From Bacteroidota bacterium (GTDB taxonomy: Bacteria > Bacteroidota > Bacteroidia > UBA8524): DNA of 64,000 nucleotides. The notes beneath the pieces were generated by a model, which saw only the letters and a program-made list of their open reading frames with translations, had not been told where the DNA came from and did no database searches. The position numbers were made by a program, and so were the translations under genes. Below, one piece after another: positions 54,474 through 64,000 of this stretch. The stretch's first letter is position 1; each line of letters starts with the position of its first letter. The DNA lies in assembly GCA_008933805.1 (NCBI GenBank), contig WBUH01000002.1:91443-155442 (forward strand), read 5' to 3'.

Positions 54474-54507
54474 TAAAAAGACCCGCCCCATGCAGGGCGA
54501 GTCTTTA
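54474..54507 (-). terminator. Intrinsic terminator of the TonB receptor gene
   Basis: On the minus strand AAGACTCGCCC pairs with GGGCGGGTCTT around a short loop and is followed by TTT. It lies 20 bases after the receptor stop codon. Confidence 0.9.
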
Positions 54508-54526: not shown

Positions 54527-56884
54527 CTAGAACTCTACACGGTAGCTAAGTATAGGGATAAGCGGTGTTTGGTACCAGTATTTTGCAGTGCCTGTGTTTT
54601 TATCATAGTATTGGCCGCCAATGTTTTTATGGTTGGTAGCATTTTGTAAATCGAGGGCAATGGTAGTAGTGATGTTTTTGTAGTTGCGCTTCATGCTTAG
54701 GCGCACATCCACACGGTAGTAATCAGGGGCTTTGCTTGCAAACGCTTTCGATTCGTAAAACTTGGCTTCGTTGTGTGCAATAGAAGCAGCAAGGTCTATC
54801 GGAGTGTACCTGAAACCGCCCATGTTTATTGATTTTATGCTGAAACCTATCACACGGTCTTTGTTGCCTCTTTTATAAGCCCACTCTTTTCCGGCGGTAA
54901 ATGAAATTACATAGTTGGTATTGAAACGGGTATTGTACCACACATCATCCAGCGTTTTGTACTTAGATTCATACAACGAAGCGGATAGCAAATAGTAGAA
55001 GTTTTTATGTAAAAACCGTTCGTAGGTCAATTCGGCACCATAGTTTCTGCCATATCCTTTATTCACCAAAGGTTCGGTGTTATACCCTTCAACACTGTTA
55101 AGTATCGAGAAGTGTTTATCCCTATCCGCACTCACTGGCACATTGAACAAATGCTGGTAATACAACTCAAGTTTTATGTGTGAGTAGCTGTTTATATTAA
55201 AATCATATCCGGTAACAATGTGGTGCGATTTACTGAATGCAAGGTTTTTATTGGGAGTAGTGATGGTATTGTTCTCGGTTTTTTGGGCAAAGTATATTCC
55301 TATGGGTTGCAATTGGCTGTGCAAGCCATAACCCAGTATAAAACTTCCACGGCTGTTTACCGCATATTTTATAGATGCCCGTGGCTCTATTGAGTTTGAG
55401 TTGTTTAGCAATAACTGGTGGTAGTGCAAGCCCATATTGGCGGTTACACGTTTTGAAAGCATATAATTCCATTGGAAGAATCCTTGTACTGAATACGTAT
55501 TGTCGTTTACATTCAGTTTTTCAGTAAGCTCAGTGGTGTCGGTTTTATCTTTCATGATAAGATTAAAACCCAAACGGTTTACTATCAATCCGCTGCGAAT
55601 ACTGCTTTTTGCAGATAATTTTTGGGTATATACGGATGATAGCGTGGTTTTGTTTTGGGTGTATCTCTGCTCGTATTGTTTAATAAAAGTGGTGTAATCC
55701 GGTTGGAGCTCTTCTTCGTTATAACCGTTTTGATTGCCTGAAAACACAAGGGCTGTTTTAAGGTAGGATTTGTTTTTAAAGTTTATGGTATGTGTAAGCC
55801 CCACAGCCCCTGTATTGCTCAAAAAGCGTGAGTTTGATTTGTAAAAATCATCCTCTTCCCATTTTAGTGAATCCTTTTTGGCATAAGAATTTTGGGTGCT
55901 GATGCCCCCAAAACCGAAGGCACTAAAACTACCGGCTCTTTTTGTTGGCAAGTACACATTAAACGATAAATCCTGAAAGTTGGTAACGGCATCACCCAAT
56001 GGCACGCCAATCATGCCCAATAATGATAGGGTAGAGTATCGGTAGTTGATAAGGAATGAGCCTTCATAGCCTTTCTTAAAAGGGCCTTCTACTGCAAAAT
56101 CTAACCCCAGCAAGCCTGCTTGAAAGGTATATTCACGTTTTTGATTGTTTCCTTTGCGCAGTTTCAAATCAAAAACACCTGATAAAGCATTGCCGTATTC
56201 AGCAGCAAAAGCACCCGTCGAAAAATCAGAATTACTTAGTAGCTGCGAGCTGATAATGGAAATACCTCCGCCCGATGTTCCTACGTTTGAAAAGTGGTTG
56301 GGGTTAGGAATTTCAACACCTTCCATACGCCATAACAACCCGTTGGGCGAGTTACCCCTGATAGAGATGGTATTGCTACCGTCGCCGGCGTGTACCACCC
56401 CTGCAAACGAGGTGGCCATCCTGCCGGGGTCGTTTACCGCCGCCGCATACTTTTGGGTTTCTTCTACTGAAAAAGGACGGGTGCTAACTGTCGACATACT
56501 GTTTAGCGGGATATTCTTTTTGGCGGTAACCTCTACTTCTTGTGCGGTTACAATATCTTCTTCAAGGTTAACAGTCAGCACCAATTCTTTCCCGGCATTC
56601 ACCGTAAGGTTTTGCAGTAATTGTTCCTTATAGCCCATGTAGGTAACTTTAATGGTTCGTTTACCTACGGGCACTCCTTTTAGAGTGAAATTTCCATTTT
56701 CATCGCTAACAGCCCCAATAATGGGGGTAACCTCCTGCACTACAAGTTGTGCCCCTATTAATGGTGATTGTGATACTTTATCTAAAACAGTACCTCTAAT
56801 GGTTTGGGTGGCAGTTTGACCGTGGGCAATTAAGAATGTGAACAGTAATAAATAAAGCGCGATAATTAATTGTTTGAAATTCAT
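54527..56884 (-). CDS. TonB-dependent receptor with carboxypeptidase-regulatory domain
   Basis: The protein of 785 residues from MNFKQLIIAL has a signal peptide (1-23, ending AHGQ), a CarboxypepD_reg-like beta sandwich (about 29-112, IRGTVLDKVSQSPLIGAQLV), a plug domain (about 125-235, with ISIRGNSPNGLLWRMEGVEI) and a C-terminal outer-membrane barrel ending in RVEF. It imports an unknown substrate with TonB energy. It has no N-terminal STN domain, although it stands in a sigma/FecR operon; the STN domain is on the neighbouring protein. A 66-base gap separates it from that gene. Confidence 0.92.
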   Translation of the reverse strand: MNFKQLIIALYLLLFTFLIAHGQTATQTIRGTVLDKVSQSPLIGAQLVVQEVTPIIGAVSDENGNFTLKGVPVGKRTIKVTYMGYKEQLLQNLTVNAGKELVLTVNLEEDIVTAQEVEVTAKKNIPLNSMSTVSTRPFSVEETQKYAAAVNDPGRMATSFAGVVHAGDGSNTISIRGNSPNGLLWRMEGVEIPNPNHFSNVGTSGGGISIISSQLLSNSDFSTGAFAAEYGNALSGVFDLKLRKGNNQKREYTFQAGLLGLDFAVEGPFKKGYEGSFLINYRYSTLSLLGMIGVPLGDAVTNFQDLSFNVYLPTKRAGSFSAFGFGGISTQNSYAKKDSLKWEEDDFYKSNSRFLSNTGAVGLTHTINFKNKSYLKTALVFSGNQNGYNEEELQPDYTTFIKQYEQRYTQNKTTLSSVYTQKLSAKSSIRSGLIVNRLGFNLIMKDKTDTTELTEKLNVNDNTYSVQGFFQWNYMLSKRVTANMGLHYHQLLLNNSNSIEPRASIKYAVNSRGSFILGYGLHSQLQPIGIYFAQKTENNTITTPNKNLAFSKSHHIVTGYDFNINSYSHIKLELYYQHLFNVPVSADRDKHFSILNSVEGYNTEPLVNKGYGRNYGAELTYERFLHKNFYYLLSASLYESKYKTLDDVWYNTRFNTNYVISFTAGKEWAYKRGNKDRVIGFSIKSINMGGFRYTPIDLAASIAHNEAKFYESKAFASKAPDYYRVDVRLSMKRNYKNITTTIALDLQNATNHKNIGGQYYDKNTGTAKYWYQTPLIPILSYRVEF

Positions 56885-56950
56885 AGTTCTGTTGTTTTTA
56901 ATTTCCATATCTCTTGGACAATTAAAAAACAGAATACCCCTATGCCGGTA

Positions 56951-59050
56951 TTACAAAAATTTGATAGATGCTTTAGCCCCCAGCCACATAGTGCTTTGTG
57001 TATTGCCCATAGTGTTGTTGCCAAAGGTTGGCGGTGCTATTGCATTAAAGGTATTGATGAATGAATTATCGGTTTTTTCTTGCTGCAAGAAATTGAATGT
57101 GGGGCCTACAGCCAAGCTGATTTTTTTGGCAATTGCATACGAATAACTCACGTTTACACGGCTAAGCAGGTTAGTTTTTATAGCACCTGACGATGTGTTT
57201 TGTAATTGCTGCGTGGTTATATCAAACAGCAAGCCTTTTTTCGGGGTAAGCTTTTTATAAGTGCTCAGTCCGTAGCCAAAAGTCCAAAAGGGCTGAGGGC
57301 CAAAGTTGCTATACCCTGCAAACAATAGGTTGTGAAATTTATCTACGCCGCTTCTAAAACCTAAAGAGGTAATTTTTAGCTCATCAAACGATAGTTCTAT
57401 TTTGTGGTAACCGTTTCTTACAAAGCTAAATATACCCACAGGAATGCCATTGCAGCTATCCGCAAAATTAAAACAGGCTACCTGTACACCGTTTATTTTT
57501 CGGGCTATGTTTATTACCCCTGTCACCTGTGCACCATCCACTTCTTTTGCCATATTCATTACCCCGCTCACTTGTACACCCGTAATTTGTTTAGCAGCAT
57601 TCATCACACCACCAATTTGCACCCCGTCAATTTCTTTAGCGGTATTCATTATACCGCCTATTTGTGTGCCGCGGGCATACTTGGCTGTATTTAAAATACC
57701 CCCCAGTTGAATGTCGCGCATGGTATCTTTAGCCCAATTATATATGCCGCCTATTTGCACCCCGTTTATGTTATTGGCATAATTAAAAATACCTCCAAGT
57801 TGCAAGCCGGTAATATTGGTTCGGGTAATGTTATAAATACCACCCACCTGTAAGCCGTCCACAATTTCTGCATAGTTAAATATGCCGCCCAATTGCATAC
57901 CATCTACGTCTTTGGTCACAATGTTAAAAATACCTCCAATTTGTAAGCCGTGGTAATATCCTTGCACAGTATTAAAAATACCGCCTGCTTGCACACCGTC
58001 GGTGTTTCCGCCAACGATATTAAAAATGCCCCCACCTTGCACGTGTTTCACATTACCACCCACAATATTGCCTAACCCCGCCATTTGTACATATTGCACA
58101 TCGCCGAAATCATAGTTTAGTAAACCCGCAATTTCCAGCCCGTCAACCCCTTTTGAGTTTCCTATTAAAACGTTAAAGGATAGTTTATTAATCGTATTGT
58201 ACGATAAGAGTTTGTTGGTGCTTAGCGGCGGAACCAATGAAAATGATATTTTGGTAAACAATGTATCCCGTATGTTTCTAAAGTTGGCATTCAGTTCTTT
58301 TTGCTTTTGCCAAAACTTACTGATAGGAGCCGAGGTATCTTTAACCGCACTATCAATTACAAGTATTGGTGCGGGTGTATCGATAGGAGTTTCAGTAGCA
58401 GGTTCTTGGGGTAGAAGCGTTGTTTCAACCTTAGGAATATGGATAGGGGTGAGGGTTAGCCACAATTCTTTATCAGTAGCACCGGAGAGGGTAAACGCAG
58501 TGTCTTTATAATTTTCTTTGGCTATTGAAAGTGATAAGTCGCCCGTTTCGGCTGATACTACCATTTTGAAATACCCGAACGAATCGGTAATGGCCGATTG
58601 CTTGATGGATTTAATAAAAATACTGGCATCTTTCACCTTAGCACTATCGCCTGCACTTACAAGGTAGCCGCTAATGGTAAAAGTGCTTTTTTTAGCGGGC
58701 GGTACGGGTTCGCTGTATTTAATAATGATGTATTTCTTTTTAAGCTTGTAACTGCACGAAACCGGTTTTAGCAAAGCATTCAGCACCACCCGTAAAGGCT
58801 TATTATAAAAGCTGACTGAGGTTTTTCGTTGGTCGTCAAACTGTTTTGAGTTGTATGAAAATACCACCCCTGTTTGGTTGCTGATGGTTCTGAAAATTTC
58901 GGCAAAGGTTTGGTTACTGGCATTCACCGTAACCGATTTTTCCAAAAATGGCACATCGGCAGCGCGGGCTGTAGAAACGTTTACGACTATTAAAACAACC
59001 CAGATAAAGTGCTTAATTGTTGCAGCGGTTGCCTTTAATAATGTATTCAT
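56951..59050 (-). CDS. STN-domain protein with 16 tandem 15-16-residue repeats
   Basis: The 699-residue exported protein has a signal peptide (1-31), an STN domain (about 36-112, QTFAEIFRTISNQTGVVFSY), a CarboxypepD_reg-like domain (about 124-200), a Pro/Thr-rich linker (about 205-245) and then about 16 repeats of 15-16 residues (301-547; consensus DGVQIGGIFNxAK). The C-terminal 150 residues look like barrel strands. The repeats resemble the LA_2272-type surface repeats of Leptospira. It has no TonB plug. It overlaps fecR by 38 bases, so it is part of that signalling operon. Confidence 0.8.
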   Translation of the reverse strand: MNTLLKATAATIKHFIWVVLIVVNVSTARAADVPFLEKSVTVNASNQTFAEIFRTISNQTGVVFSYNSKQFDDQRKTSVSFYNKPLRVVLNALLKPVSCSYKLKKKYIIIKYSEPVPPAKKSTFTISGYLVSAGDSAKVKDASIFIKSIKQSAITDSFGYFKMVVSAETGDLSLSIAKENYKDTAFTLSGATDKELWLTLTPIHIPKVETTLLPQEPATETPIDTPAPILVIDSAVKDTSAPISKFWQKQKELNANFRNIRDTLFTKISFSLVPPLSTNKLLSYNTINKLSFNVLIGNSKGVDGLEIAGLLNYDFGDVQYVQMAGLGNIVGGNVKHVQGGGIFNIVGGNTDGVQAGGIFNTVQGYYHGLQIGGIFNIVTKDVDGMQLGGIFNYAEIVDGLQVGGIYNITRTNITGLQLGGIFNYANNINGVQIGGIYNWAKDTMRDIQLGGILNTAKYARGTQIGGIMNTAKEIDGVQIGGVMNAAKQITGVQVSGVMNMAKEVDGAQVTGVINIARKINGVQVACFNFADSCNGIPVGIFSFVRNGYHKIELSFDELKITSLGFRSGVDKFHNLLFAGYSNFGPQPFWTFGYGLSTYKKLTPKKGLLFDITTQQLQNTSSGAIKTNLLSRVNVSYSYAIAKKISLAVGPTFNFLQQEKTDNSFINTFNAIAPPTFGNNTMGNTQSTMWLGAKASIKFL
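57410..58150 (-). repeat. Coding tandem repeat within the STN protein
   Basis: About 16 units of 45-48 bases encode residues 301-547. Unit sequences differ at many third positions, so the array is old, not a recent slippage product. Confidence 0.85.
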
Positions 59051-59984
59051 CGTCCGTTTTAATAAAGGTTAGCTCCAACGTTTCCGTAATCACATCCAGC
59101 ATGGTTTCCAGTTTTTCGCTGGTAAAGTGTGCAGTCAACCTGCAATCTTCAATGTTCTTGCTTTCAATACTTATGCGGGTATTAAATGCACCACTCAGTT
59201 TTTGTACTACTTCTTTCAGTGAAACGTGGGTAAATGCAAACGTTTGGGTTGCAGCAGTTTCAGGTGCCCGTACAATACTTTTTTGCGATTTAATGTAAAC
59301 AGCGCTTTGGCCTTTGTTTAATGTAACTTCAGTGCCTAAGCTATCATACAACAACACTACACCCTCATCCACCAAAACACTTATGGTATCTTGGTTGGGC
59401 GATGTGGTGATTTTAAATTTAGTACCGATATCTTTTACATACACATTGCCCACATCCACCAGCATGGGAAGCTGCTCAGAGTGGGTTACCTCAAAATACG
59501 CCGACCCTTTAAGTTTAACTAAACGGTTGGTTTTTCCGTAACCATCATCAACGGTTAGACTTGAGTTAGGTTCGATAACGGCGGTGGTACTTTCTTCAAG
59601 CACTACTTTCTTTTGTGTATCAAGTGCTGCATAGGTGGTGCTGTTATTACCCGATGTTTGGTTGAAGTATCTGAACACAAGCACGGCACCAGCCACTAAT
59701 ACTACTGCGGCTGCATATTTAAATAAACCCTTTAGTTTGAAAACAGGGGTTTGTTTCTCGGTATAATCCAGCTGACCTTTTACGGTTTCTAACGCCGCTT
59801 GCACATTAGTGTTGGTAAGTGCATTAATTTGGTAATCAGTAAAAAACAGTTTCTCGCACTCAAGGTAGTAGGCCAAATTATCAGCACTCTGTTCCTTCCA
59901 GTCCTCCAACTCCATAGCCTCCTCAGGACCTGCTTCACCTGCCAGATACTTGCTTATTAACTCATCTGTATTTGTTTCTTTCAT
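59013..59984 (-). CDS. FecR-type anti-sigma factor
   Basis: The protein has 323 residues from MKETNTDEL; a GTG two codons upstream overlaps the sigma stop. The N-terminal part (about 1-85) binds sigma factor in the cytoplasm, one membrane helix follows (about 88-107, LFKYAAAVVLVAGAVLVF), then the periplasmic FecR domain (about 125-225, RLVKLKGSAYFEVTHSEQLP) and a C-terminal DUF4974 domain (about 245-320, TFAFTHVSLKEVVQKLSG), itself similar to an STN fold. Between sigma and the STN protein it is the middle link of the signal chain. Confidence 0.93.
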   Translation of the reverse strand: MKETNTDELISKYLAGEAGPEEAMELEDWKEQSADNLAYYLECEKLFFTDYQINALTNTNVQAALETVKGQLDYTEKQTPVFKLKGLFKYAAAVVLVAGAVLVFRYFNQTSGNNSTTYAALDTQKKVVLEESTTAVIEPNSSLTVDDGYGKTNRLVKLKGSAYFEVTHSEQLPMLVDVGNVYVKDIGTKFKITTSPNQDTISVLVDEGVVLLYDSLGTEVTLNKGQSAVYIKSQKSIVRAPETAATQTFAFTHVSLKEVVQKLSGAFNTRISIESKNIEDCRLTAHFTSEKLETMLDVITETLELTFIKTDDEYIIKGNRCNN

Positions 59985-59989
59985 CAGCA

Positions 59990-60547
59990 CTAAATTTGGG
60001 TGAACAGAATTAGTAAAGGCATGTATTCTTTAAGCTCGGTGCGTAAAATCTTTAACGCTTTACCCATTTGGTTTTCAACGGTTTTTACTGAAATACCCAA
60101 TGTGTCGGCTATTTGCTGGTACTTAAGGTTACCGTAGCGGCTCATTCTAAAAATCTTTCCGCATTGCTCAGGTAACTGGTCTATTGCATCGTCAATCTTT
60201 TGTTTTAGTTCTTTAGCTACCACCACATCGGCAGTGTGTTCAACCGTAGCAGAGCGCATAGAGTCTACAGCGTAGGATTCTCTAACCGCCATTTGCTTTA
60301 TTCGGTTAAGGCAGGCATTGTGTACTGATTTATAAAGGAAGGCGCGGAGCGAAGTATGTATGTCAAGCTCATCGCGCTTTTGCCATACATTAATATACAC
60401 CTGCTGCACTACATCTTCGGCTTCGCCGGGGTCTTTCAGAAAGGTGAAACTATAGTTTACTAATGGTTTGTAGTATTGGTTAAAAAGCATTTCAAAAGCC
60501 TTTATATCTTCAAGTTTAAAAAGTGCTTTTTCTTTGCTGTTTTCCAT
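59990..60547 (-). CDS. ECF sigma factor
   Basis: The 185-residue protein has sigma region 2 (about 15-85, FNQYYKPLVNYSFTFLKDPG, AEDVVQQVYINVWQKRDEL) and region 4 (about 125-175, LPEQCGKIFRMSRYGNLKYQ, then GISVKTVENQMGKAL). It has the length of Bacteroidota FecI-like sigma factors. It is the first gene of the operon sigma-FecR-STN protein-TonB receptor and has a strong housekeeping-type promoter a few bases before its start. Confidence 0.95.
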   Translation of the reverse strand: MENSKEKALFKLEDIKAFEMLFNQYYKPLVNYSFTFLKDPGEAEDVVQQVYINVWQKRDELDIHTSLRAFLYKSVHNACLNRIKQMAVRESYAVDSMRSATVEHTADVVVAKELKQKIDDAIDQLPEQCGKIFRMSRYGNLKYQQIADTLGISVKTVENQMGKALKILRTELKEYMPLLILFTQI

Positions 60548-60557
60548 TTGTAGGCAG

Positions 60558-60587
60558 CAAAGTTAAACATACTTTTATACAAGACAA
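60558..60587 (-). promoter_or_regulatory. Promoter of the sigma/FecR operon
   Basis: On the minus strand TTG (60585-60587), 19 bases and TAACTTTG (60558-60565) match the Bacteroidota consensus exactly. The start would be about five bases before the ATG at 60547, so the leader is very short. Confidence 0.8.
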
Positions 60588-60716
60588 TTGAAAGCGTTTT
60601 TACCCCTACGTCACCAAAATAATTTGTTTAGGGGTTGCCTTAGAAATAGTTAGATACCGGCTAAGCTGATTCTTTTCCATATTTCTATAAAGAAACTAAG
60701 AGTGTGAACCGGTAAA

Positions 60717-61376
60717 TTATACCCTGCTTTTTGAAGCTTTGGTTACAAGAGTTCTGCCTGTTTTATTAAGCGCCTCAACCCTGTTGCGTACGTGCAGTTT
60801 TTCGTAAATATTGTAAATGTGTGTACGCACTGTGTGCACGCTTAGAAATAGTTTTTCGGCTACTTCTTTATTGCCGTATCCTTTGCCCAGTAAGTCAAGT
60901 ATCTCATTTTCACGCTTACTAAGGCTTATTTCTTCGTTTGCAAATCCGGGGTTTTCTCTAAAAGCATTTACCACTTTGCGGGCAATGTCGCTGCTCATGG
61001 GTGCTCCGCCTTTTACCAGTTCTTTAATAGCATCTAATAGGGTTTCGCCGGCAGCTTTTTTCAAAATATATCCATTGGCTCCGGCTTTCAGTGCTCTGAA
61101 TATTTTTTCAGAGTCTTCAAAAACAGTACACATCATTATCAAAATATCAGGATAATGTTCTTTAATATATCGGGTAAACTCAATACCATCCATACCCGGC
61201 AGGTTTATATCCATTAACAGTACCTGTGGCTTCGAGTGCTTTATCCCTTCCATGGCTTCTTCGGCACTAGTGTACGAGGTGCAGAAAAAATCGGTATGGC
61301 CGTTGATAATAAATGAAATACACAACCGCATATCGGGTTGGTCTTCAACAATGCATATTTCGAGAGGCATATTCAT
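60717..61376 (-). CDS. NarL/LuxR-type response regulator
   Basis: The 219-residue protein has a receiver domain (1-125) with Asp11 and phospho-acceptor Asp56 (QVLLMDINLPGMDG), Lys in ILKKAAGETLL, and a LuxR-type helix-turn-helix (about 150-210, LSKRENEILDLLGKGYGNKE, TVRTHIYNIYEKL). A start at 61370 is equally possible. It follows the kinase gene with a 14-base gap, so the pair is co-transcribed. It stands next to the sigma/FecR operon but is not obviously part of it. Confidence 0.93.
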   Translation of the reverse strand: MNMPLEICIVEDQPDMRLCISFIINGHTDFFCTSYTSAEEAMEGIKHSKPQVLLMDINLPGMDGIEFTRYIKEHYPDILIMMCTVFEDSEKIFRALKAGANGYILKKAAGETLLDAIKELVKGGAPMSSDIARKVVNAFRENPGFANEEISLSKRENEILDLLGKGYGNKEVAEKLFLSVHTVRTHIYNIYEKLHVRNRVEALNKTGRTLVTKASKSRV

Positions 61377-61390
61377 AATAGATAGTTTTA

Positions 61391-64000
61391 TTACAGTGGT
61401 ATTTTAGCTTTTACAATACATCCTGCGTTAGGTTGTGAACTAATCTCTACAGTGCCTTGCAGTGCAGCGGCACGCCTGTTCATATTGCCTAAGCCGTTTC
61501 CGCCGCCTGAAGGGTGTGTTGTAAATCCTTTGCCATTATCCTTTATTTCAAAATACAGGACATTGTTTTGTTGTAACATAAAATAGATTTTTACCTCGCC
61601 GGCGCCTGAGTGTTTGATGATGTTGTGGAGGCTCTCTTTGATGATTAGAAAGATATTACGACTTACGTCGGCCTTCACAAGGTGATCGGTAAAAACATTC
61701 TCATCAATTGTAATGGTGTTTTTTATGCCGTGTTCTTCAAGTAGGCGGGCACAGTAGTTGTGCAAGTATGCAGCAAGGTTATGAAGGGTGTGATTAGCCG
61801 CATTCAGCGTCCATATCACTTCATTCATCTTATTAATTACCTCGTTCGATGATTTTTCAAGCTTATCCACCATGTCTGTAAAGGGAACCGTGTGTGGCGA
61901 ATTTTCTTTTAGTATGCGGGATAACAGTACAATATGGGTTAGCTCGGCACCAATATCGTCGTGTATATCGGCTGCTATTCGGTTTCGTTCTTTTTCAATT
62001 GCTTCGTTTTGTTGCAGTTGAGCCAGTTGCACCCTGAAACGTTTTGTGAACCGATTGCGGATAAGGATGTATAAACCACCTACTGCACAAAGTAAAATCA
62101 AACCTTTGAATGGTAATGTGGAATAAAAAGGAGGCAATATGGTAAAGGCTATTTCTTTTGAGGTACTCCAATCGCTGTTTGATTTTTTTGCTTGTATCTC
62201 AATGGTAAAATCCCCGTGGTGTAAATCACTAAACTCAAGTTGAGTTGACGAGGTAGTGTGCCACTCTGTGCTACCTGCAAAACGGTACCGGTAGGTTACC
62301 ATGCCGGGGTTAGTCATAACAGGGGCTATGTATTCTATCCGCACCCGCTGTTGCCTATACGGAAAGCTGATAACCGATGTAGTAGGGTAAACGGTTTCGT
62401 TTACCTTAAAACTTAAAATAGTAAGAACAGGGGCCGATACCTTGTATTGCTTTTGCAACGGCAGGGCAAAGGTTGATAAACCTTCAGCCGTGGCAGCATA
62501 CATCGTGTTTTTTAAGAAAGTAATATCATAAACATCAATGGAGTGAAGGCCGTCGTCAAGCCCTATAGTTTGTATAATGTGTAACCGAGTATTCTTATAA
62601 GCAGCTATAGTAATACCGCCGTTGGTAACTATGTATAAAGTGTCGTTTTGTAAATATACCCGCCTGCAAATAATACCTTCAAGTCCTTCTGCACGGCCTA
62701 AGCGGGCAACTATCGTGTCATTTTTTAATGCTAAAACACCATCGCTATACGTGGCTAAAAAAATTGTTCCGTCTGCACTTTGGGCATAGTGCTGTATCCT
62801 TACATTTAGTCGGGGTGTTTTTATTGCCAAATTTTTAATCGTGGAACCGCTTGCTTTATAAAAGCCGTTTGAACTACTTAAATAACAAGTGTTTTGGTTG
62901 TCATAAAAACAACTGTATATACGTGCGTTTAATACTAAGTTTTGTAGTGCTTTAATTTGTGGTGTTGGTTGTTTTACCTCAAATATTAATTTAGGTGTTG
63001 TGATATAAATGTTGCCATTGTTATCAGATGCAACACCCTTAACCGGGGCATAAAATCCCGTTCCATCAGTTTTGTTTAATAAAACCCGCTTATATACTCC
63101 TTTAGCCTTACGTTGCAGCAGTACACAGGTCTCATCAGTGGCGCACCATATATTGCCCGTCTTATCCGAGTGTATTTGAAGTACTCGGTTAAAGTTGCGA
63201 TTTCCATAATTCAAGTCGTAGTGTTTTATCTCATTACCATTTATACTGGTGATGAAACCGTTACAATAGCCTGTCCACAACGTGCCTTCGTTATCGGTAT
63301 GTATACACAACAACCCCTTTTGCAAAAGGCGTTCTTTAATACCGGGTATTATATCTTCAATCAGCTTTTTATAAGGTATTTTAAACAAACCTTTGTTTCC
63401 CGTACAAAACCACAAATTGTCTTCATTGTCAATAGCTACAATGGCATACATATCTTTTAATACCTGCACTGCGGGCGCATAGCCATTGCCGGTGTAGCGG
63501 TAAAAAAAAGTATTGTGCCTGCGGTTACACATCCAAATATTGTGGTGTTTGTCCATCAGCACAATCACATCTTCCTTCCTTCCCATAGATATTTCGTGCA
63601 CACCTAACTCAAGTGTGCATGCTGTATCATTAATAGAGTACAGCCCGTTGTCGTTCAGGTATAAGGTTCTGGACGGTGTAGATGCATTCGCACACCAGAT
63701 TTTATAACCTCCTGCCGAAAAATTAGAATACGGGATAGTAACTGCTTTAGGCTCGGAATCGGAAACCAGAATTATTTTATCATTATTAGTGATGCAATAC
63801 ACCTTACTGTTATCCGTACTTAGATAAAATGCTTTTATCACATCCGTAGTATCTAAAAGATGGCTGAAGTTAAAGTATGTGATAGTGTTGTTATTATCTA
63901 TTTTTACTATCGAGTGGGGCTTTTCTCTAAGTTGGACATAGATTTCTCCATTCCCTGATTCAATAAATTCAGAAGCTACACCGTAACTGGTAAGTGCGTT
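61391..64000 (-). CDS. NarL-type sensor kinase with propeller sensor (5' end outside window)
   Basis: The frame stays open to the window end, so about 870 residues are visible and the start lies outside. The order is regulator propeller repeats (up to about 520 residues before the membrane part), a Y_Y_Y-like domain (QQRVRIEYIAPVMTNPGMVT, TYRYRFAGSTEW), one membrane helix (KGLILLCAVGGLYILI), a HisKA_3 domain with the phospho-acceptor His in NRIAADIHDDIGAELTHI and a HATPase with DNGKGF and GNGLGNMNRR. The apparent GTG at 63839-63841 is internal. It pairs with the response regulator downstream. Confidence 0.92.
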   Translation of the reverse strand, partial: NALTSYGVASEFIESGNGEIYVQLREKPHSIVKIDNNNTITYFNFSHLLDTTDVIKAFYLSTDNSKVYCITNNDKIILVSDSEPKAVTIPYSNFSAGGYKIWCANASTPSRTLYLNDNGLYSINDTACTLELGVHEISMGRKEDVIVLMDKHHNIWMCNRRHNTFFYRYTGNGYAPAVQVLKDMYAIVAIDNEDNLWFCTGNKGLFKIPYKKLIEDIIPGIKERLLQKGLLCIHTDNEGTLWTGYCNGFITSINGNEIKHYDLNYGNRNFNRVLQIHSDKTGNIWCATDETCVLLQRKAKGVYKRVLLNKTDGTGFYAPVKGVASDNNGNIYITTPKLIFEVKQPTPQIKALQNLVLNARIYSCFYDNQNTCYLSSSNGFYKASGSTIKNLAIKTPRLNVRIQHYAQSADGTIFLATYSDGVLALKNDTIVARLGRAEGLEGIICRRVYLQNDTLYIVTNGGITIAAYKNTRLHIIQTIGLDDGLHSIDVYDITFLKNTMYAATAEGLSTFALPLQKQYKVSAPVLTILSFKVNETVYPTTSVISFPYRQQRVRIEYIAPVMTNPGMVTYRYRFAGSTEWHTTSSTQLEFSDLHHGDFTIEIQAKKSNSDWSTSKEIAFTILPPFYSTLPFKGLILLCAVGGLYILIRNRFTKRFRVQLAQLQQNEAIEKERNRIAADIHDDIGAELTHIVLLSRILKENSPHTVPFTDMVDKLEKSSNEVINKMNEVIWTLNAANHTLHNLAAYLHNYCARLLEEHGIKNTITIDENVFTDHLVKADVSRNIFLIIKESLHNIIKHSGAGEVKIYFMLQQNNVLYFEIKDNGKGFTTHPSGGGNGLGNMNRRAAALQGTVEISSQPNAGCIVKAKIPL

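Follow-up and report, generated by a model that had tools for sequence, protein, structure and literature searches.

From computational evidence, we describe a Bacteroidota gene cluster that is likely to encode a variant cell-surface signalling system whose transducer is a dedicated outer-membrane protein, here called N, and not a TonB receptor. Judging from gene neighbourhoods, the conserved unit is an ECF sigma factor, a FecR regulator and N, and the TonB receptor that follows them in the DNA analysed (a stretch of 64,000 nucleotides, hereafter the window) is an optional companion.

Gene order and domain content

As the sequence-only reading had proposed, four genes stand in a row on the minus strand in the order sigma factor, FecR, STN/repeat protein and TonB receptor, and family searches bore out the identity of each. 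The first encodes a Bacteroidota FecI-like ECF sigma factor of 185 aa (59990..60547; TIGR02985, 174 bits versus a cut-off of 126), and the second a 325-aa FecR anti-sigma factor with an STN-like FecR_C domain (59013..59990; PF04773 and PF16344 above cut-off). The third gene encodes N, the putative transducer (56951..59050; 699 aa), which matches both STN and the LA_2272 repeat, and the fourth a TonB-dependent receptor composed of CarboxypepD_reg, plug and barrel (54527..56908). An intrinsic terminator with a 13-bp stem, 7 G-C pairs and a T tail (fold z-score -4.35) is predicted after the receptor gene (54477..54506). The overlap of 38 bases between the FecR and N genes was reproduced. The distance from N to the receptor had been given as 66 bases, which holds when the second ATG is taken as the receptor start; it is 42 bases to the first. 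Since the first ATG lies 8 bases beyond the end of a predicted promoter, the second (56884) is the likelier start.

By family searches at the thresholds used, FecR and STN genes number just two each in the genome of the window, indicating that the FecR-STN adjacency is not due to chance. The other pair belongs to a canonical sigma-FecR-STN-receptor fusion on a different contig. Directly upstream of the locus, on the same strand, lie a response regulator and a histidine kinase with a Reg_prop/Y_Y_Y sensor (60717-63841); they were rejected as members of the system, since they do not recur in related loci.

A hidden STN domain was sought in the receptor and none was found; CarboxypepD begins at residue 36, straight after the signal peptide. 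The CarbopepD_reg match was over its cut-off, and Plug scored 23.7 versus a cut-off of 23.9. Nor did a profile scan find STN in any of 12 homologous receptors. The locus thus has one hallmark of a FecIRA system, an ECF sigma factor beside a FecR with FecR and FecR_C domains (found in the window and in 75-77 of 80 relatives), and lacks another, the N-terminal STN on a TonB receptor, the domain being carried by N.

Predicted structure of N

N scored 35.1 bits with the STN profile (cut-off 28.4) and 36.3 bits with the LA_2272 repeat profile NF047436 (curated cut-off 25); a CarboxypepD_reg-like (TTR-like) domain stayed below its cut-off. NF047436 matched 12 of 18 N homologues at E 0.01. NF047435, the profile of LA_2272/LA_2273 family lipoproteins, gave no match in the N of the window and one weak match among the 18 homologues. 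The repeat array noticed in the sequence proved real: it comprises 15 units at a spacing of 15-16 residues with the consensus GxQxAGxxN, conserved across 68 aligned homologues. From the N terminus, the predicted architecture is a signal peptide, STN (residues 39-112), the TTR-like domain (123-200), a disordered tether (205-240), a beta-solenoid of the 15 repeats (about 300-545) and a small barrel of eight strands (548-698).

The AlphaFold model of N, built with 68 homologues, had a mean pLDDT of 87.9, and that of the fragment from residue 261 had 93.8. Structural matching related the STN domain to the PupA signalling domain (TMt 0.74), the TTR-like domain to the carboxypeptidase D TTR domain (TMt 0.80), and the C-terminal barrel to the small outer-membrane barrels NspA, Opa60, OprF and OmpW; the E-values of these matches are weak because each domain covers a small share of the query. 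A PDB sequence search with the single N protein returned nothing useful. Of 79 N proteins, 61 end in F, which is a common signal of outer-membrane proteins. Each repeat most plausibly forms one coil of a solenoid, and by the order of strands in the model this solenoid would be periplasmic relative to the small barrel. The idea that the repeat array is itself the sensor lost ground here, since this strand order would place it in the periplasm and not outward; the outward-facing part of N is probably formed by the barrel loops.

Occurrence of the sigma-FecR-N unit

N-like proteins were present in many of 100 related genomes, and the inspected neighbourhoods showed sigma-FecR-N. Searching species-genome contigs with the single N sequence gave no matches; an alignment query did match, returning at least 383 N relatives from 84,980 species genomes. 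The best 80 of 383 were kept and come from Flavobacteriales, Cytophagales, Chitinophagales and Bacteroidales; as these loci were picked by similarity to N, the frequencies given below describe near relatives. FecR adjoins N in 77 of the 80 loci and the sigma gene in 75, bearing out that the link of the repeat protein to FecR recurs widely across Bacteroidota. Some of the missing neighbours are contig edges. Two clear exceptions, L109 (7863-9572) and L136 (7938-9713), have N with no FecR beside it, and we count them against our main reading.

The company of the unit is variable. Of the 65 loci in which 5 kb of sequence or more is available, 27 have an STN-less relative of N, designated R, and 42 have the receptor family downstream in the same orientation; a DUF2807 gene recurs in 36 of the 80 N loci, and in 16 loci sigma-FecR-N stands without any of these three. 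N looks like an STN-tagged copy of an R-type repeat protein. By a loose pattern, a TonB box was found in 20 of 45 receptors, 6 of 80 N proteins and none of 32 R proteins.

The receptor family of the window is broad (75 of 100 genomes at E<=1e-100). Two genomes listed as 100% complete, G079 and G097, carry sigma-FecR-N-R and had no receptor relative at this threshold in a search that scored ten candidates per genome. N thus appears not to need this receptor, and the two may cooperate where both occur. Wherever neighbours were examined, receptors more than 50% identical to that of the window stood beside N or R; this could reflect a physical partnership and is likewise counted against our main reading. 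In one 877-aa protein (G040:C150), STN and a receptor of this broad family are fused.

The N-type proteins clustered in a tree of 57 FecRs, with 4 changes versus 14.9 in shuffles, and holding all 40 of them as one clade bettered the tree (lnL +21, p-AU 0.846); by this sequence comparison, a single origin is allowed, unproven as it is. The proposal that STN had been split off from the receptor was not supported by these comparisons: the N-type FecRs fit one lineage travelling with N, and the receptor family is without STN in all 12 cases scanned and absent from some near-complete genomes that bear the unit. One locus in the set, L067 (CP034120.1), is labelled Glaciecola amylolytica, a gammaproteobacterium; it is Fluviicola-like and falls in the Flavobacteriales group of the FecR tree, and the record name is probably wrong.

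Promoter motif and predicted regulon

Spaced-word searches conducted upstream of the sigma genes and, separately, of the downstream genes converged on the same motif, TAGGGGTAA-N~12-GTTGTC, or in its fuller form TAGGGGTAA, about 12 bases and [AG]GTTGTC. Its spacing is fixed, with 115 of 137 AGGGG...TGTC pairs at 16. A site was defined as a weight-matrix score of at least 14 within 150 bases upstream of a gene, the matrix being built from the same 80 loci. Such sites precede 43 of 76 sigma genes, 10 of 76 FecR genes, 17 of 32 R genes, 11 of 37 DUF2807 genes and 19 of 47 receptor genes; there were none before the 80 N genes, 3 before 660 other genes (one of them a truncated receptor) and 0 in 289 shuffles. 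About 40% of the sigma genes have no site at the chosen threshold, a further point that we count against our main reading. Altogether, the 80 loci contain 142 sites, 128 of them near system genes, and 74 loci have at least one; 25 shuffled loci had none. Loci not used for training contain 25 sites, 23 of which immediately precede a sigma, FecR, R, DUF2807 or receptor gene; 4 of the 25 are on contigs also represented in the training set. Unlike the N loci, the canonical loci examined are nearly devoid of TAGGGGTAA sites, with 3 in 329 kb of strand, of which two are weak.

Within the window there are exactly two sites, both on the minus strand. The site with the top score (29.7) is TAGGGGTAAAAACGCTTTCAATTGTC, upstream of the sigma gene (60583..60608); the other, TAGGGGTATTCTGTTTTTTAATTGTC (56917..56942), lies upstream of the receptor gene and scores 25.5, and the next best scores below 9. 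Because the receptor has its own copy of the sigma-gene promoter, it is a predicted target gene. With this promoter before it and the terminator behind it, the receptor gene is predicted to form its own transcription unit, although read-through from upstream may reach it as well, and the notion of one four-gene row did not find support. From the distribution of the sites, we infer that the sigma factor reads the TAGGGGTAA sites and predict that the sigma operon is autoregulated.

On contig 11 of the same genome, unlinked to the window, an STN-less LA_2272-type R gene (L035 6324-7544) has a site scoring 22.7 at 13-17 bases before its start. In relatives, sites are also carried by unlinked genes for DUF2807 and small outer-membrane proteins. 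Exact sites numbered 24 in the 100 genomes, mostly in genomes with N or R, versus 13 for a reversed control pattern. The one-mismatch sites C1, C2, C5, C8 and C9 of the window genome were rejected as targets, as they fall within genes or at a distance of over 90 bases from a start. In the relative G002, another receptor-like gene (L153 6008-8323) has a site scoring 18.2 shortly upstream and is a possible extra target.

A housekeeping promoter of the form TAnnTTTG lies 18 bases before the sigma gene of the window and occurs in 18 of 74 relatives; it was found before no R gene and before a single receptor gene, and may contribute basal expression.

Discussion

The mechanism that we consider likely is the following. 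N would sit in the outer membrane through its small C-terminal barrel, with the solenoid, tether, TTR-like domain and STN extending into the periplasm, where the STN would meet the STN-like FecR_C end of FecR; we infer both this topology and this contact. A change at the outer membrane would alter the STN/FecR contact, and FecR would then let the ECF sigma factor act. The sigma factor would transcribe its own operon, sigma-FecR-N, from the TAGGGGTAA-N~12-GTTGTC promoter, together with a small envelope regulon, consisting here of the receptor and the unlinked R gene and elsewhere of DUF2807 proteins as well. Since N resembles R plus an STN module, it may report the state or load of the cargo of R-type proteins. 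In Pseudomonas, the anti-sigma factor is bound by a detached signalling domain, which protects it until the signal comes (PMC11637429), and by analogy the uninduced state here may be an STN-FecR complex.

The system shares with FecIRA-type systems (E. coli Fec; Pseudomonas Fox and Pup) an ECF sigma factor, a FecR-type regulator with an STN-like C-terminal domain, an STN-bearing outer-membrane transducer and a sigma-dependent promoter, here predicted, before the receptor gene. In those systems, however, STN lies within the TonB receptor, whereas here it is on the plug-less small-barrel/solenoid protein N and the receptor has none. The E. coli fecIR genes are under sigma70 (PMC9249621), whereas the sigma gene here carries a site of the cognate type. 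The STN-SusC systems of Bacteroidota polysaccharide loci use FecI/FecR and carry STN N-terminally in their outer-membrane protein (PMC7782687); they differ in that STN is fused to SusC and LA_2272 repeats are absent. The Dma anti-sigma factors of Bacteroides thetaiotaomicron, which affect vesiculation, have a C-terminal beta-barrel joined by a disordered tether (PMC13088901). Sigma control would be tied to a C-terminal barrel through a disordered tether in the N system too, but Dma unites anti-sigma factor and barrel in one polypeptide, whereas FecR and N are separate genes whose products would be joined via their STN domains. DUF2807 has been grouped with the Toastrack domain of envelope-stress (PSP/Lia) systems (PMC11237479). 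From the presence of DUF2807 and the likeness to Dma, we would guess that the signal is envelope state rather than a nutrient.

Other assignments of roles were weighed against this mechanism. The sequence-only reading had suggested that the TonB receptor senses a substrate and relays the signal to N, which would supply only the missing STN, and thence to FecR. The receptor adjoins N here and follows it in many loci, its closest subclade stays beside N or R, and receptors of classical systems are sensor and target both; because the receptor gene of E. coli Fec is also a FecI target, a receptor that is a predicted target may still be a sensor. Although such a relay may operate where the receptor is present, we regard it as unlikely, given that the two near-complete genomes and many loci have the unit without the receptor, that N, with a predicted barrel of its own, also occurs unlinked to the receptor, and that the receptor carries its own sigma-type promoter. 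N could also be a structural or regulated envelope protein with an inherited STN, FecR answering something else. This would suit the finding that the STN-less R relatives are themselves predicted targets and that Pfam STN at E 0.01 does not recognise 19 of 68 N proteins; yet a home-made STN profile detects the domain in 80 of 80, and N, which in none of 80 loci has its own promoter site, nearly always follows sigma-FecR, as a regulator would. We give this explanation hardly any credence.

With the signalling role unchanged, the repeats might instead be strands of one large transmembrane barrel, N being a big porin-like protein with STN. They are beta-rich, some are modelled as 13-residue strands with 2-residue turns, and no solved solenoid was among the 50 structural matches listed. 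However, those matches are mostly small barrels, and the repeat number across homologues ranges from 7 to 15, odd in 33 and even in 35. Because odd and even counts are equally common, a repeat cannot be a single strand of an antiparallel barrel that has both its ends in the periplasm, and this architecture appears very unlikely. Signalling by N as a small-barrel, solenoid-bearing transducer thus stays our preferred reading.

Besides N, STN also occurs in further FecR-linked proteins other than TonB receptors. L165 3294-4664 and L166 4123-5478 encode STN with a small outer-membrane barrel (451-456 aa), in which a CarboxypepD domain was not detected, and L163 2001-4406 encodes an 801-aa STN-CarboxypepD protein with ankyrin-like repeats. 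This suggests that STN is a portable output module, attached by Bacteroidota to outer-membrane proteins besides TonB receptors.

LA_2272/VC2662 proteins (NCBIfam NF047436, NF047437) have the same 15-16-residue repeat as N and are annotated only as surface repeat proteins, whereas N is STN-bearing and FecR-linked. In open-access papers, we found no STN or FecR link of these proteins and no description of the gene arrangement or promoter motif; the remark that such a combination lacks a functional description agrees with that literature. The putative signalling system is thus widespread yet undescribed there, and it gives the LA_2272 repeat and DUF2807 a first functional context. The predicted promoter sequence would let the regulon be read off in any genome, and the system is testable in cultured hosts (Fluviicola, Niastella, Chryseolinea, Ohtaekwangia, Fulvivirga and Spirosoma). 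More tentatively, it may represent a phylum-wide form of envelope sensing with an STN-tagged copy of an outer-membrane solenoid/barrel protein, itself a product of the system, as the sensor, so that cells would measure their own envelope protein or its ligand independently of a TonB receptor.
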